Source: Lampropedia cohaerens | GTDB lineage: Bacteria; Pseudomonadota; Gammaproteobacteria; Burkholderiales; Burkholderiaceae_C | Direction: 5' to 3' | DNA: 64,000 nucleotides | NCBI RefSeq assembly: GCF_001005215.1 | Contig: NZ_LBNQ01000025.1 | Coordinates: 62,001 to 126,000, forward strand | Shown: positions 22,765 to 62,014 of the stretch, one piece after another | Layout of the letters: every line of letters starts with the position of its first letter | Numbering within the stretch: position 1 is the first letter of the stretch | Notes under the pieces: model-generated | Seen by the model: only the letters and a program-made list of their open reading frames with translations | What the model was told of the DNA's origin: nothing | The model's database searches: none | Translations under genes and position numbers: made by a program

Positions 22765-24828
22765 ATGTATCTGTTGTTTGAAGAGGCTGGCAAATTCCAG
22801 GCTGGCCGCATCCTCTCCGAGGCCGATGCCTCCTCGCAGGTCGAGCTCGACAGTGGCAAGCGCGTCAAGGTCAAGAAGGCCAACGCGCTGCTGAAGTTCG
22901 AGCGGCCCGCACCCGCGGAGCTGCTGCGCCGCGCGCAGGAAAAGGCGCAGGAGATCGACCTGGACCTGGCCTGGGAATTTGCGCCGGAAGGCGATTTCAC
23001 TTTCGCTGCCCTTGCGCAGGACTATTTCAGTGCCGACGCCGATGTCGTGCACCAGGCGGCCGCCCTGCTGCGGCTGCATGAAGCGCCCCACTACTTCCGC
23101 CGTGCCGGCAAGGGCCAGTTCCGCAAGGCCCCGCAGGACGTGCTCAAGCAAGCCCTGGCCGCGATCGAGAAGAAACGCCTGCAGCAGCAACAGATCGAGG
23201 CCTGGGCCAGCGATCTGGCCGCAGGCCGCACGCCCGAACCCATTGCCGAGCAGCTCTACCGGATTCTCTTCAAGCCTGACAAGAACGCGCCCGAATACAA
23301 GGCCGTGGTGGAGGCGGCCCGCAATACTGGTGCCGCCCCGCTGGCACTACTGCAGCGCGCCGGGGCCATTCGCTCGCCCTACGAGTTCCACTGGCAGCGT
23401 TTTCTGTTCGACCAGTTCCCCAAGGGCTATGCATTTCCGGAAGTGACGGCCCCCGCGCCGCAGACCGAGCTGCCGCTGGCACCCGTACAGGCCTTCTCGA
23501 TCGACGACTCCCACACCTCGGAAATCGATGACGCACTCTCTGTGCAGGGACTGGGCAGCGGTCAGGTCACGCTGGGCATCCACATTGCCGCGCCAGGCCT
23601 GGCGATTCAGCGCGGCGATGCGCTTGACCAACTGGCACGCGCGCGGCTTTCGACGGTCTACATGCCGGGGGCCAAGCTGACCATGCTGCCTAACGACGTG
23701 GTGCAGGCCTATACGCTGGATGCAGGCCGCGCCAACCCGGCCGTGTCGCTGTACGTCGTCTATGACGAGGCGACGCTGGAGCCGCTGTCGCACGAGACCC
23801 GCATCGAACGCGTCGAGACGCTGCACAACCTGCGCTATGACCGCATCGACCATATCGTCACCGAGGACTGGCTGGCGGCACCCTCCGTCGCCGGGCAGGC
23901 CGATGTGCCGGCGGAGCTCATCGCGCTGCAGCCGCAGCTGGCCTTTCTGCACCGCCTGGCCAAGGTCCTGAAGTCGCGCCGCGAAGTCGTGCGCGGCAAG
24001 CCGGAGCACTTCTCGCGCCCGGACTACAACTTCCGCCTGCACGGACAGCAAGGCGCCATTCCAGATGGCAGCGAAACCGTCGAGATCACCACCCGCAAGC
24101 GCGGTGCACCGCTGGACCTGATCGTGGCCGAAGCCATGATCGTGGCCAACAGCCATTGGGGCGGCTGGCTGGCGCACTTCGGCGTGCCCGGCATCTACCG
24201 CAGCCAGCACAGCCTGGCGCCCGGCGTGAAGGTGCGCATGGGCACCAAACCGCTGCCCCATGCCGGCATGGGCGTGGCCAGCTATACATGGGCGACCTCG
24301 CCGCTGCGCCGCTATGTCGATCTGGTCAACCAGTGGCAAATCATCGCTGCCGTGCAGCACGGCCAGACCGCAGCGCTGGCCGCCCCCTTCAAGCCGAAAG
24401 ACGCCGAGCTGTTCTCCGTGATCAGCGCGTTCGATGCCACGTACACCGCCTACAACCGTTACCAGAGTGACATGGAGCGCTACTGGACGTTGCGCTACGT
24501 GCAGCAGAACGGCATCACCGAAATCGATGCGGCCGTGATCCGCGAAGCGCAGGAGGGCGAGCCAGCACTCGTGCGCGCAGACACGCTGCCGCTGGTGGTG
24601 CGCGTGATGGGCGCGCAAGCCCTGGCGCGCGGCAGCCGCGTGCGCGTGCGGCTGGGCGAAGCGGATCTGCTCGCCCTGGAAATCAGCGGCACCGTCATCG
24701 CCAGCCTCGCGCAGACCGCCGAGGAAGATGCCCCAGACGATGAGGAGTCGCTGCTGCCCGAGGCACTGGCCATCGCCGTTGACCTGGCCCCCGAGCCCGC
24801 CGCCCAAGAGGCCTCCGTGACGGAGTGA
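22765..24828 (+). CDS. rnb: RNB-domain exoribonuclease (RNase II family)
   Basis: A 3'-5' exoribonuclease of the RNase II/R family. 687 residues. The N-terminal half holds a non-standard helical region (residues 60-230) in place of the usual paired cold-shock domains. The RNB domain begins near 245 with FSIDDSHTSEIDDALSV, containing the clustered catalytic aspartates. The later WATSPLRRYVDL is the family signature. The C-terminus is acidic and lacks a clear S1 domain. Start at 22765 gives MYLLFEEAGKFQAGRI, typical of the Burkholderiales version. The next gene overlaps by four bases. Confidence 0.92.
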   Translation: MYLLFEEAGKFQAGRILSEADASSQVELDSGKRVKVKKANALLKFERPAPAELLRRAQEKAQEIDLDLAWEFAPEGDFTFAALAQDYFSADADVVHQAAALLRLHEAPHYFRRAGKGQFRKAPQDVLKQALAAIEKKRLQQQQIEAWASDLAAGRTPEPIAEQLYRILFKPDKNAPEYKAVVEAARNTGAAPLALLQRAGAIRSPYEFHWQRFLFDQFPKGYAFPEVTAPAPQTELPLAPVQAFSIDDSHTSEIDDALSVQGLGSGQVTLGIHIAAPGLAIQRGDALDQLARARLSTVYMPGAKLTMLPNDVVQAYTLDAGRANPAVSLYVVYDEATLEPLSHETRIERVETLHNLRYDRIDHIVTEDWLAAPSVAGQADVPAELIALQPQLAFLHRLAKVLKSRREVVRGKPEHFSRPDYNFRLHGQQGAIPDGSETVEITTRKRGAPLDLIVAEAMIVANSHWGGWLAHFGVPGIYRSQHSLAPGVKVRMGTKPLPHAGMGVASYTWATSPLRRYVDLVNQWQIIAAVQHGQTAALAAPFKPKDAELFSVISAFDATYTAYNRYQSDMERYWTLRYVQQNGITEIDAAVIREAQEGEPALVRADTLPLVVRVMGAQALARGSRVRVRLGEADLLALEISGTVIASLAQTAEEDAPDDEESLLPEALAIAVDLAPEPAAQEASVTE

Positions 24829-42354: not shown

Positions 42355-42548
42355 CCGCTCCGACGATTTTGCAACCGATCGACTGAACGCCCGCCGCCAT
42401 TGCCATGCCCGTCGCCCACGCGCCATTGCAACTGCCCACCGCCGCTCCAGCCACTGCGCGCGCCCACGGCGCCGGAAATGGCGCCGTGGCATCCCAGCGG
42501 CACCCATGCGGCCACCATCCACTTTCATCGCAGAAGGCAAGCGCTCCC

Positions 42549-58013: not shown

Positions 58014-59431
58014 GCTGCCACCTCCTGCCGCTGCGTGCGCAGCCGCTGGGCCAGTTGTTCGGCCATGCTGCCGATGTTGCCCGCGCCCATGAACAGCACG
58101 ACATCGCCATCCTCGACAATGTTGAGCAGCGCATCACCCAGCTGCGTCACGTCCTCGACGAATACCGGCTCGACCTTGCCCGCCACACGCACGGCGCGGG
58201 CCAGCGAGCGCCCGTCGGCAGCCACGATCGGTTGCTCACCGGCGGCATAAACCTCCGTGAGCAGTACCGCATCGGTCGTGCCCAGCACCTGCACGAAATC
58301 CTCAAAGCAGTCACGCGTGCGGGAGTAGCGGTGCGGCTGGAACGCAACGACCAGCCGCCGCTGGGGAAAGGCACCACGTGCAGCGGCAAAGGTCGCAGCC
58401 ATCTCCACCGGGTGGTGGCCGTAATCTTCGATGAGTCGGAAGCTGCCACCCTTGCCGGTGGGAAACTCGCCGTACTGTTCAAAGCGCCGCCCGACCCCCT
58501 GGAAACCGGCCAGTGCCCGCACCACCGCCGCATCGTCAATGCCCAGCTCCACCGCCACGGCAATCGCCGCCAGCGCATTGCGCACGTTGTGCACGCCGGG
58601 CAGGTTCAGCGTCACGGCCAAGTCCGGCAGGGTCACGCCATTGCTGCGCCGGGCGGTGAAATGCATGCGCCCGCCGTCGGCGCGCACGTCCACGCCGCGC
58701 ACCTGCGCGCCTTCGTCAAGACCGTAGGTCGTCACCGGGCAGCTGAGGCTGGGCAGGATGGCGCGCACGCCCTCGTTGTCGGTGCAGACGATGGCCGTGC
58801 CAAAGAACGGCATGCGGTGCAGAAAATCGATGAAGGTCTGGCGCAGCCGGCCGATGTCGTGCCCATACGTCTCCATGTGGTCGGCATCGATGTTGGTGAC
58901 CACCGCCATCACAGGCGTGAGATTGAGAAAGGAGGCATCCGACTCATCGGCCTCGACAACGATGTAGTCGCCCTTGCCCAGACGTGCGTTGGCACCGGCA
59001 CTCTTGAGCGGCCCACCGATCACAAAGGTCGGATCCAGCCCGGCTTCGACCAGCACACTGGTCACCAGGCTGGTGGTCGTGGTCTTGCCGTGCGTGCCAG
59101 CCACGGCGATGCCCTCGCGGGTGCGCATCAGCTCAGCCAGCATCTTGGCACGGGGCACGACCGGGATGCCCCGCGCACGCGCTGCCAGCACTTCCGGATT
59201 GTCAGGCTTGACGGCGGTGGACGTCACCACCGCATCGGCACTGGCCACATGGGCCTCGCTGTGGCCGATGAAGGTGCGAATGCCCAGCCGGGCCAGGCGC
59301 CGCACCGTCGCGCTGTCCTGCAGGTCGGAGCCGGAGATGCCGTACCCCTGGTTGTGCAGCACCTCGGCAATCGGGCTCATGCCCGCGCCGCCGATGCCGA
59401 CGAAATGGATGTTATGAATGGCGTGTTTCAT
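58010..59431 (-). CDS. murC: UDP-N-acetylmuramate--L-alanine ligase
   Basis: Adds L-alanine to UDP-MurNAc in the cytoplasm. 473 residues: N-terminal [22 protein letters not shown], central ATP site [27 protein letters not shown], and the C-terminal [18 protein letters not shown]. It overlaps murG and ddlB by ATGA. Confidence 0.97.
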
Positions 59432-60498
59432 TCAGCCAGTTCCTCGCAAGCCGTGACGATGGTGCGCACGGCATCCAGTTTTGCCAGCTGGTGCGCACGT
59501 TCGGCACGCTCCAGCAGTTCTTGACGCGTCCGCTGACGGATAAAGTCCGCCAGCGACGCGGGCGTCATGTCCTTCTGTTGCACCAGCCAGGCCGCATCGG
59601 CATCGACCAGGTAGCGCGCATTGGCCGTCTGATGGTCGTCCACCGCATACGGAAACGGCACGAAGCAGGCCGCAACGCCAACGGCGGCGATTTCCGTCAC
59701 GGTGCTGGCGCCGGCGCGGCACAGCACCAGGTCGGCCTCGGCATAGGCACGGGCCGTATCCTTGATGAAGGGCACCAGCTGCGCCTGCACGCCCGCCTGG
59801 GCATAGTGCGCACGCAGCGCCTCAATCTGCTTGCCGCCGCCCTGATGCACGACCTGCGGCCGTTGCTGCGGTGCAATCAGCGCCAGTGCCTGCGGCACGA
59901 TCTCGTTGAGCGCCTGCGCGCCCAAGCTGCCGCCGACCACCAGCAGTTTCAGCGGGCCTTCGCGCCCGCCGTAGCGACGCTTGGGTGCGCGCTGCTGCGC
60001 AAACGCCTCGCGCAATGGGTTGCCGCACCACTCGGCCCCCGGCAATGCCCTGGGAAACGCGGTGAAGACCCGCTGCGCCAGCCTGGCCAGCCACTTGTTG
60101 GCCATGCCAGCGACGGCGTTCTGCTCATGCAGCACCAGCGGTGTGCGCAGGCTGGCTGCGGCCAGGCCGCCTGGCACACAGATGTATCCACCAAAGCCCA
60201 GTACCACGTCCGGCTGCACTTCCTTGAGCAGTTTGCGCGCCGCCAGCCACGCCTTGGTCAGCGTCCACGGCAGCGTCAGCCATTTGCCCACGCCCTTGCC
60301 GCGCACGCCTGCAAAAGCAATGGTGCGCAGATCCAGATCGTGGCCGGGCACCAACCTGTGTTCCATGCCATCGGTTCCGCCCAGCCAGACCACGCGCCAG
60401 CCCGCCTGTTGCAGCCCCTGCGCGACGGCAATACCCGGGAAGATATGGCCGCCCGTGCCACCGGCCATGATCAGCGCGGTCTTGATGCGGGCGTTCAT
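59428..60498 (-). CDS. murG: UDP-GlcNAc lipid I transferase MurG
   Basis: Converts lipid I to lipid II at the inner face of the membrane. 356 residues. The N-terminal loop [56 protein letters not shown] and [17 protein letters not shown] are family marks. The ATG at 60498 is preceded by GGAGG and gives [14 protein letters not shown]. The frame stays open to 60690, but only by reading through the 84-bp tandem repeats, so that extension is rejected. Confidence 0.95.
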
Positions 60499-60749
60499 AC
60501 GCAGCCTCCGCGCATGCGGGCACTGCATGCCTGGGCGCCGCTGCGCGTCGCCATTCCGTTTTGGTGAAACAGAATTCTCATACGCGGCCTCCGCGCATGC
60601 AGGCACTCGCGTGCCTGGGCGCCGCTGCGCGTCGCCATTCCGTTTTGGTGAAACAGAATTCTCATACGCGGCCTCCGCGCATGCAGGCACTCGCGTGCCT
60701 GGGCGCCGCTGCGCGTCGCCATTCCGTTTTGGTGAAACAGAATTCTCAT
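60495..60749 (-). CDS. 84-codon repeat-encoded frame between ftsW and murG
   Basis: Three 28-codon repeats, each starting [18 protein letters not shown]; the third diverges at the end (SARMRGGCV). Its ATG at 60749 overlaps the ftsW TGA (ATGA), and its TGA at 60495 overlaps the murG ATG (ATGA). Each repeat also has its own GGAGG-x6-ATG, copied from the murG initiation region. No known family. It may simply be a translated spacer that preserves coupling from ftsW to murG; expression is not shown. Confidence 0.4.
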
Positions 60750-60775
60750 ACGCGGCCTCCGCGCATGAGAATTCT
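60498..60775. repeat. 84-bp tandem repeat, three units plus partial fourth
   Basis: TACGCGGCCTCCGCGCATG recurs at 60581, 60665 and 60749 (84 bp apart), with a variant TACGCAGCC at 60498 (83 bp before). The two central units are identical to each other; the first differs at a few positions near ACTGCATGCC. The fourth copy is partial: it breaks off after CGCATG and is the end of ftsW. Confidence 0.92.
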
Positions 60776-62014
60776 GTTTTCGTAATCCACGCGCAGGACG
60801 ATGGCCATGGCGATCAGGTTGAGCAACACGCCAGAGCCGCCAAAGCTCATCAGCGGCAGCGTCAGGCCCTTGGTGGGCAGCGCCCCCAGATTCACGCCCA
60901 TGTTGATGACGGCCTGAAAGCCGATCCACAGACCGATACCCTGTGCCACCAGGCCTGAGAAGATGCGGTCCAGCGCCACGGCCTGGCGGCCGATGACCAT
61001 GATGCGGCGCGTGAGCCAGAAAAACAGCGCCAGCAGCAGCAGCACGCCAACAAGCCCGAACTCTTCGCCAATGACGGCGAGAATGAAGTCGGTGTGGGCT
61101 TCTGGCAGCCAGTGCAGTTTCTCCACGCTGCCACCCAGGCCAACGCCGGCAACCTCGCCCCGGCCAATGGCAATCAGCGAATGCGTCAGCTGGTAGCCGC
61201 GCCCAAGCCGGTGCTCCTCGGACCAGGGATCCAGATAGGCAAAGATGCGGTCACGCCGCCACGGTGACGACCAGATGATGAAGGCAAAGGCCAGCCCCAG
61301 CACGCCCAGCATCAGCAGAAAGCCCCGGATGTTGACGCCGCCAAGGAACAGGATGCCCACCGCGATCACCGCGACAACGACGAACGCGCCCATGTCCGGC
61401 TCGGCCAGCAGCAAAAACCCGACCAGCCCGACCGGTAGCCCAATGGGCAGCACCGCGCGGAAAAATCGTTCGCGCACGTCCATGCGCCGCACCATGTAAT
61501 CGGCCGCATAAATCACGACCGCCAGCTTGGCCAGTTCCGACGGCTGAAAGCGCATGAGGCCAAGCGGCAGCCAGCGCCGCGCGCCATTGACGGAAATTCC
61601 GATGCCGGGGATCAGCACCGCTATCAGCAGCACGATGGTGCCCAGCAGCACCCACACGGCGTGCTTGCGCCACATCTCCATGGGGATCTGGAACACCGTC
61701 ACCGCCGCAACGAACGCTACGCCAATGGAGACCACGTGCCGGATCAGGAAGTACTCGTTGCCGATGTCGCCAAACCGCGGGTTGTCGCCCAGTGCAATGG
61801 ATGCGGAATACACCATCACCACGCTCCAGGCCAGCAGTGCGATCAACACCCCCACGAGCGCCTGATCGATGCCTTGCACCACCGGCGGCCTGGCCGAGGT
61901 GCTGAAGCGATACTCCAGCCCGCTGGCACGTACCGGCAGGTCCAGTGCATCCTGGTTGCGGCCAAGCAGGCGGGTCAGCCAGCCAAGTGTGCGGTTGCCG
62001 TGTACTGTGCTCAT
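60746..62014 (-). CDS. ftsW: Lipid II polymerase FtsW
   Basis: A SEDS-family septal peptidoglycan glycosyltransferase. 422 residues with about ten hydrophobic helices. [33 protein letters not shown], and the C-terminal [17 protein letters not shown] are hallmarks. The ATG at 62014 overlaps the murD stop by ATGA; an upstream extension to 62077 lies within murD. The last residues ([11 protein letters not shown]) are encoded by DNA shared with the tandem repeat. Confidence 0.96.

Follow-up and report, generated by a model that had tools for sequence, protein, structure and literature searches.

What allows two essential genes to be pushed apart while the stop/start overlap between them persists? 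The ftsW-murG junction of Lampropedia cohaerens raises this question. It lies in a stretch of 64,000 nucleotides (hereafter the window) from a 3.16 Mb draft genome in 41 contigs. A sequence-only reading had described here a tandem-repeat frame that bridges ftsW and murG with ATGA overlaps at both ends, and the coordinates bear this out on the minus strand. The ftsW TGA (60748-60746) overlaps an ATG (60749-60747) that begins a small frame, referred to here as the relay frame, and the TGA of this frame (60497-60495) overlaps the murG ATG (60498-60496), in each case as ATGA (Table 1). The frame does consist of 84 codons in three fused 28-codon repeats, as had been read, and every unit carries a Shine-Dalgarno sequence and an ATG (GGAGG..GTATGA). 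The units had been given as 84 bp, which is right for the first two, a pair of identical copies, but not for the last, which is 83 bp. The accompanying idea that divisibility by three keeps the coupling intact likewise applies to internal units, which may be a multiple of 3, but not to the last one, which must be 2 mod 3 because its frame has to end in ATGA on murG.

Table 1. Features of the ftsW-murG junction, in window positions.
Feature	Position	Strand	Description
ftsW	60746..62014	-	422 aa
murG	59428..60498	-	356 aa counted from the ATGA start
Relay frame	60495..60749	-	84 codons + TGA; three fused 28-codon repeats; ATGA at the ftsW and murG sides
Unit 1	60666..60749	-	84 bp
Unit 2	60582..60665	-	84 bp; identical to unit 1
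Unit 3, terminal	60499..60581	-	83 bp, 2 mod 3, giving the ATGA overlap with murG
A1, 5' arm of palindrome P1	60759..60779	-	within the ftsW coding end
A', 3' arm of P1	60735..60755	-	inverted copy of the ftsW end
A2, partial direct copy AAAACGGAAT	60721..60730	-	able to pair with A'
P2 hairpin, unit 1	60702..60720	-	loop GCA; one A-G mismatch
P3 hairpin, unit 1	60684..60701	-	loop GCGA

TRF reports the array between ftsW and murG with a period of 84, 3.3 copies and a score of 518; it also lists two weak short tandem repeats in the window, at 24119-24156 and 42388-42443. The ftsW coding end and the first unit are spanned by a palindrome, P1, with 21-bp arms that are 95% complementary. Its arms A1 and A' enclose the Shine-Dalgarno sequence (GGAGG) and ATG of the relay frame, with the Shine-Dalgarno sequence at the tip. 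Each unit also has two hairpins; in the first unit A' is followed by A2, next come the hairpins P2 and P3, and then a fresh copy of the SD-ATGA segment. The units had been read as copies of the junction segment, but the insert exceeds such a copy. It also holds palindromes and an inverted copy of the ftsW end. These two features, together with single units in other genera and a dispersed related element, had not figured in the sequence-only reading. Fold predictions for the junction give z = -6.7 with RNA and z = -9.2 with DNA parameters, and in neither case is any of 100 shuffles equally low. Taken with homologous units at the same place in other genomes, these scores indicate that the window repeat is not a product of chance.

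Homologous units of 80-87 bp occur at ftsW-murG in 0 to at least 3 copies across many Comamonadaceae, and other hairpin inserts occupy the junction elsewhere in Burkholderiales. In a survey of the best 80 of 587 confirmed loci, plus matches listed from further searches, the distance from the ftsW end to the murG core is mostly 50-65, 133-145, 219-233 or 307-319 bases, with others between. As read at the junctions, the main distance classes are those of 0, 1, 2 or 3 units. The plain ATGA junction in GCGGAGG..GTATGA that had been postulated as the ancestral state is found as an empty site in relatives. The comparison of unit number that had been proposed, made with one genome per species, shows the number varying between species with the overlap chain kept: of two genomes in the window's genus group, Corticibacter populi (G004) has one unit and Vandammella animalimorsus (G002, Comamonadaceae) none, Paracidovorax citrulli has 1 and P. 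cattleyae 0, and Acidovorax radicis has 3 and Leaf78 0.

Besides the units of 80-87 bp, the inserts include one of 113 bp in Polaromonas, a 116-bp pair in L171 and further hairpin inserts, and arrays occur both fused (84/83) and split (83/83, 86/86, 116/116). Inserts in L108, L045, L102, L069 and L031 were classed as other than short units, the unit ends of L044, L049 and L106 were set by hand, and left out of the unit set were L114 (with Ns), units with Ns as in L024, and the 113-bp insert in L115. The Polaromonas insert (L108, L115) is a distinct 113-bp relay that preserves the chain. Four loci carry a GC-rich in-frame repeat at the murG 5' end, at the murG start in L069 and L102 and after the unit in L043 and L049; by a script count, the distance from murG start to core in these loci is 32 to 62 codons, compared with a few in most others.

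In 132 of 132 distinct junctions ftsW and murG are linked by a chain of stop/start overlaps with 0-3 small frames in between. This count excludes loci without an ftsW or murG anchor, identical junctions and repeat loci (L001, L002, L013-L020, L048, L053, L061, L064, L070, L117 and L141). The overlap is NTGA in 130 junctions, among which 65 have no relay frame, 59 have one, 5 have two and 1 has three (L114, with Ns), and TGATG in the other two, L076 without a relay and L166 with one. These two had been flagged by the script as lacking an NTGA start, and on checking their ATG proved to be in frame with murG. At least one relay frame is present in 66 of the 132. In a further set murG is reached in 19 of 19 junctions, 10 of them newly counted (E. 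coli and nine from other GTDB families of the order). The chain is thus kept outside the window's GTDB family, in G502, G540, G542, G577, G589, G644, G657, G720 and G735; one out-of-family junction uses a GTGA start, others have fused or double relay frames, and G542 has a 12-codon relay frame without the dispersed element, E, described below. E. coli ftsW and murG overlap by 4 nt with no insert. Across the junctions examined, relay frames keep the chain at lengths between about 10 and 109 codons, whether they stand alone or in tandem, and the stop of one frame overlaps the next start on the same strand, as in coupled overlapping gene pairs.

The reading frame was also followed within the units. 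The coupled frame is open in 45 of 45 distinct short units, compared with 0 of 45 for frame +1 and 35 of 45 for frame +2, and a short unit is open in about 0.52 of composition-preserving shuffles. All 36 terminal short units (80, 83 or 86 bp) are 2 mod 3, and the 12 internal ones measure 84 or 87 bp (10) or 83 or 86 bp (2) and are never 1 mod 3; L023 has an additional 84-bp unit, truncated where its contig stops. The counts are not independent trials, as units may have a common ancestry, and it is the varied unit lengths and the unrelated inserts that carry most weight in the frame argument. Selection for the overlap chain at ftsW-murG is, as judged from these comparisons, well supported.

We next consider where the units come from. 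R1, a covariance model of the short element, was searched in 299 genomes of the family, and all 30 of the best loci fetched sit at ftsW. In the window genome and seven other short-form genomes no copies were found beyond ftsW-murG at an R1 E-value below 0.03, the next best match in the eight having an E-value of about 0.04. Genome-wide dispersal of the short unit is rejected for the genomes searched, in which the best loci read were all at ftsW. Among weaker matches fetched, one in G044 (E-value 1.3e-5, L164) has no ftsW and contains an E-like stretch. The pattern GTTTCNNCAAAAC was sought in 10 genomes; of the 20 places read, most were unrelated, but two were yggX ends. One of these is in G081 (of the window's GTDB family) and the other in Acidovorax sp. 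NO-1 (G696), and at both, the apparent yggX end has been duplicated by a core-less version, at GAAAACCACT or GAAAATCATT. The yggX-like 3' end is present in three copies in the Acidovorax sp. NO-1 locus (L237) and in two in the G081 locus (L229), together with a copy in inverted orientation and a spacer, GTTTTGCC or GTTTCGCC.

Weaker R1 matches also revealed a longer form at ftsW-murG, whose core, E, reads GTTTCGGCGCAGGCT-hairpin-AAG-hairpin-GGCCGNAGCC(A)AAAAC. A model of E, R2, has matches at an E-value of at most 1e-4 in 101 of 349 genomes of the order when 14 candidates are scored in each. In 12 chosen genomes, where scoring went up to 150 candidates, the highest numbers of matches are 51, 43, 38, 26 and 21. 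There was no R2 match in the window genome, where 150 of 7164 candidates were scored, nor in Corticibacter. E is short, multi-copy and dispersed in the manner of a MITE, and its terminal inverted repeats form a short stem with T-A at the second and third pairs (53 and 59 of 60) and C·A at the fifth (55 of 60). The flank is directly duplicated at 40 of 60 single-E loci, compared with 3.4% of mismatched locus pairs, with tandem arrays contributing, and an inverted flank copy adjoins E at 8 of 60 (null 1.6%). Because of tandem arrays and of the same site recurring in several genomes, these counts are not independent; the 60 loci include several ftsW-murG junctions. Mismatched pairs replaced a first control of shifted windows, into which tandem arrays fell and by which 0 of 83 copies exceeded the 99th percentile for direct and 16 of 83 for inverted duplication.

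The E sites read include some after stop codons, between two copies of a gene 3' end, for example at metK, at the gene before speD and at ftsW (gene names come from reading the translations). At one locus (L188, about 467-535) E lies in an efflux-pump (RND-like) gene with the frame open, directly after an inverted copy of host sequence. Two others, L290 (G484:C67) and L291 (G422:C1), hold tandem E arrays with duplicated gene ends at a spacing of about 107-145 bp. E and the short unit have common termini, GTTTC..C-AAAAC (in the short unit GTTTC-NNC-AAAAC), with the same C·A mismatch, from which the short unit is probably a core-less relative of E. The hairpins are placed differently, P2 and P3 after A2 in the short form and the two E hairpins between the termini, so the proposed homology rests on the termini. 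No known Rfam family accounts for these sequences at the 16 loci scanned (8 + 8), which had no match at gathering score (best E-values 0.38 and 0.23).

These observations are probably best explained by a hairpin insert that duplicates gene ends at GAAAAC-like sites and that has been retained at ftsW-murG as a putative translational relay. The insert would arise at GAAAAC-like sites near gene 3' ends and bring with it two copies of the gene end, one inverted and one direct but partial. At ftsW-murG it would be retained only if the chain of stop/start overlaps survives. A ribosome finishing ftsW would then restart on the relay frame at ATGA and, on finishing the relay, restart on murG at the next ATGA, and tandem copies could grow or collapse at direct repeats. 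In the window the relay is a single frame of 84 codons, fused by two internal units of 84 bp, and with such units the hand-over would take two restarts however many there are. The comparisons directly show the anatomy, the homologous units, the kept chain, the patchy presence and the dispersal of E with flank duplications; we infer that the relay is translated, how the copying proceeds, that the unit and E are related, and whatever influence there may be on the amount of MurG. The inverted flank copy is a minority feature of E loci, which counts against this explanation.

A more far-reaching version, which we advance as a tentative possibility, holds that a mobile or self-copying Burkholderiales element targets GAAAAC-like motifs close to the 3' ends of genes and, on insertion, duplicates the gene end, leaving the host gene whole. 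At some sites it would add an inverted copy, perhaps by snap-back priming from its terminal stem, and at ftsW-murG it would repeatedly have become a translation relay in an essential operon. Mobility of the short form itself is unsupported, given that the 150 of 7164 candidates scored in the window genome held no E match and that the searches turned up no second short unit.

Unit number could instead be adaptive. The differences between close species, and the existence of both fused and split arrays, would fit a dosage tuner, in which selection on the number of units, or on whether the relay is fused or split, adjusts the amount of MurG to that of FtsW. The distribution of the unit was followed on a tree of FtsW and MurG with 79 rows (78 named loci and the window), with junction ends trimmed and states typed from the junction readings; L087 and L104 lack one of the proteins. 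The short unit is present in 22 rows and absent in 54, and 3 with other inserts (L102, L108 and L069) were left unscored. The tree needs 19 changes for presence and 21 for unit number. Since 200 shuffles of the labels give 15-22 changes, the 19 for presence bear no sign of phylogeny, and a presence that looks the same as shuffled labels speaks against a tuner. So does the fused relay, which brings no additional restart; because fused 84-bp internal units leave the restarts at two, arrays built of 83- or 86-bp units are the main place where regulation of dosage could act. We regard such tuning as doubtful. The patchiness itself is compatible both with precise loss between direct copies and with repeated gain.

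The palindromes raise the separate question of whether they act in RNA. In an alignment of forty first units, A1:A' is paired in 97.7% of cells, with two-sided changes in 10 of 20 pairs. Its covariation score is reached by 0 of 500 shuffles and sliding the partner abolishes the signal, though pair types are no more numerous than shuffling yields (307 of 500). A':A2 is paired in 90% of cells and its covariation score is likewise reached by 0 of 500 shuffles, though its number of pairs with a double change and a further measure do not stand above shuffles (229 and 235 of 500). A consensus fold adds P2, with double changes. The best hairpins, at most two per unit and 84 in total from 45 distinct units, have varied stems and loops that are mostly GCA, GCCA, GTCA, GCAA, GTA or GAA.

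This covariation, the strong predicted fold and the enclosure of GGAGG and ATG by P1 are what an RNA switch would lead one to expect, in which A1:A' masks the relay Shine-Dalgarno sequence and start and A':A2 is the alternative, as in leader attenuators. G·U pairs are common in RNA stems, however, and evolution that tolerates them would be expected, from general RNA background, to leave more of them than are seen here. The variable P1 pairs (columns 4-10) comprise 264 Watson-Crick, 5 GT, 2 AC, 8 other and 1 gap, while pair 15:29, outside the variable part, is GT in 29 of 40. The 15 mismatches in the stems of the 84 P2/P3 hairpins are 12 purine-purine, 2 G·T and 1 A·C, as recorded by a finder that extends Watson-Crick stems; because it halts where the ends do not pair, its count of G·T at stem ends is too low. 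An excess of GT over AC in A':A2 (38:6) was considered as a trace of RNA-level selection and ruled out, since A2 is A/C-rich and about 4:1 would be expected without pairing, by reasoning rather than simulation. Some E loci within or following unrelated genes likewise carry an inverted flank copy. For an attenuator-like switch, strong covariation stands beside few G·U in the variable stems, and we consider it unlikely. The varied, mostly Watson-Crick stems, and an arm that repeats the ftsW end in inverted orientation, instead suggest copying at the DNA level and palindromes kept or made there.

A small protein, one of the products that had been envisaged for the frame, would account for every unit being open in frame and for the recurrence of residues 4-8 (L-F-x-Q-N). 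Across the whole frame there are 51 synonymous and 79 other changes, 39% synonymous compared with 23% expected. This excess lies in A'/A2 (26 changes at third positions) and in the SD copy (18), parts that are tied to the ftsW end. In the hairpin part the changes are nearly equal across codon positions (20/20/15, 11 pairs) and few residues recur, so that codon-position bias appears only where the frame is tied to ftsW rather than across it. A functional small repeat protein made from the relay frame is therefore most unlikely on the pattern of substitutions. An assembly artefact is scarcely credible: the draft is in 41 contigs, the G149 assembly breaks within such an array and the window's single assembly may miscount units, but single and multiple homologous units are present in many other assemblies.

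With the hairpin insert retained as a putative relay, nature has repeatedly tried what distance two essential genes tolerate while their stop/start overlap persists. Because relay frames of varied length keep the chain, the importance of FtsW-MurG coupling becomes directly testable. The junction also points to a widespread hairpin element, without an Rfam match at the loci scanned, whose flanks are apparently copied from its target and whose copying mechanism could be deduced from its many insertions.

A literature search, with sources available in part, found no account of ftsW-murG tandem repeats or coupling, of a murG VNTR in Acidovorax or of such elements. Among known systems, Rickettsia palindromic elements are palindromic inserts in frame inside coding genes. 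E was seen once in such a position (L188), but its main sites are gene ends and the coupled junction. Termination-reinitiation coupling at ATGA or TGATG overlaps between co-directed genes has been described (PMC6728339, PMC10666635). The stop/start overlaps found here are of that kind, as in E. coli ftsW/murG, whereas the junctions studied here can have an interposed hairpin-built frame, single or tandem, with both overlaps kept. MITEs and other small non-autonomous palindromic repeats (PMC2229807, PMC10969869) resemble E in being short, hairpin-rich and dispersed, with inverted termini and an often duplicated flank. E differs in duplications of tens of bases that cover gene 3' ends and stop codons at several sites read, and in the inverted copy of the local flank at some sites. 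REP elements are GC-rich hairpin repeats (PMC3733652), as E is, though by eye the ends of the E consensus are without a GTAG/CGTC tag. Overlap coupling and small palindromic repeats are thus already known, and it is their combination, with flanks copied in both orientations, that looks new.
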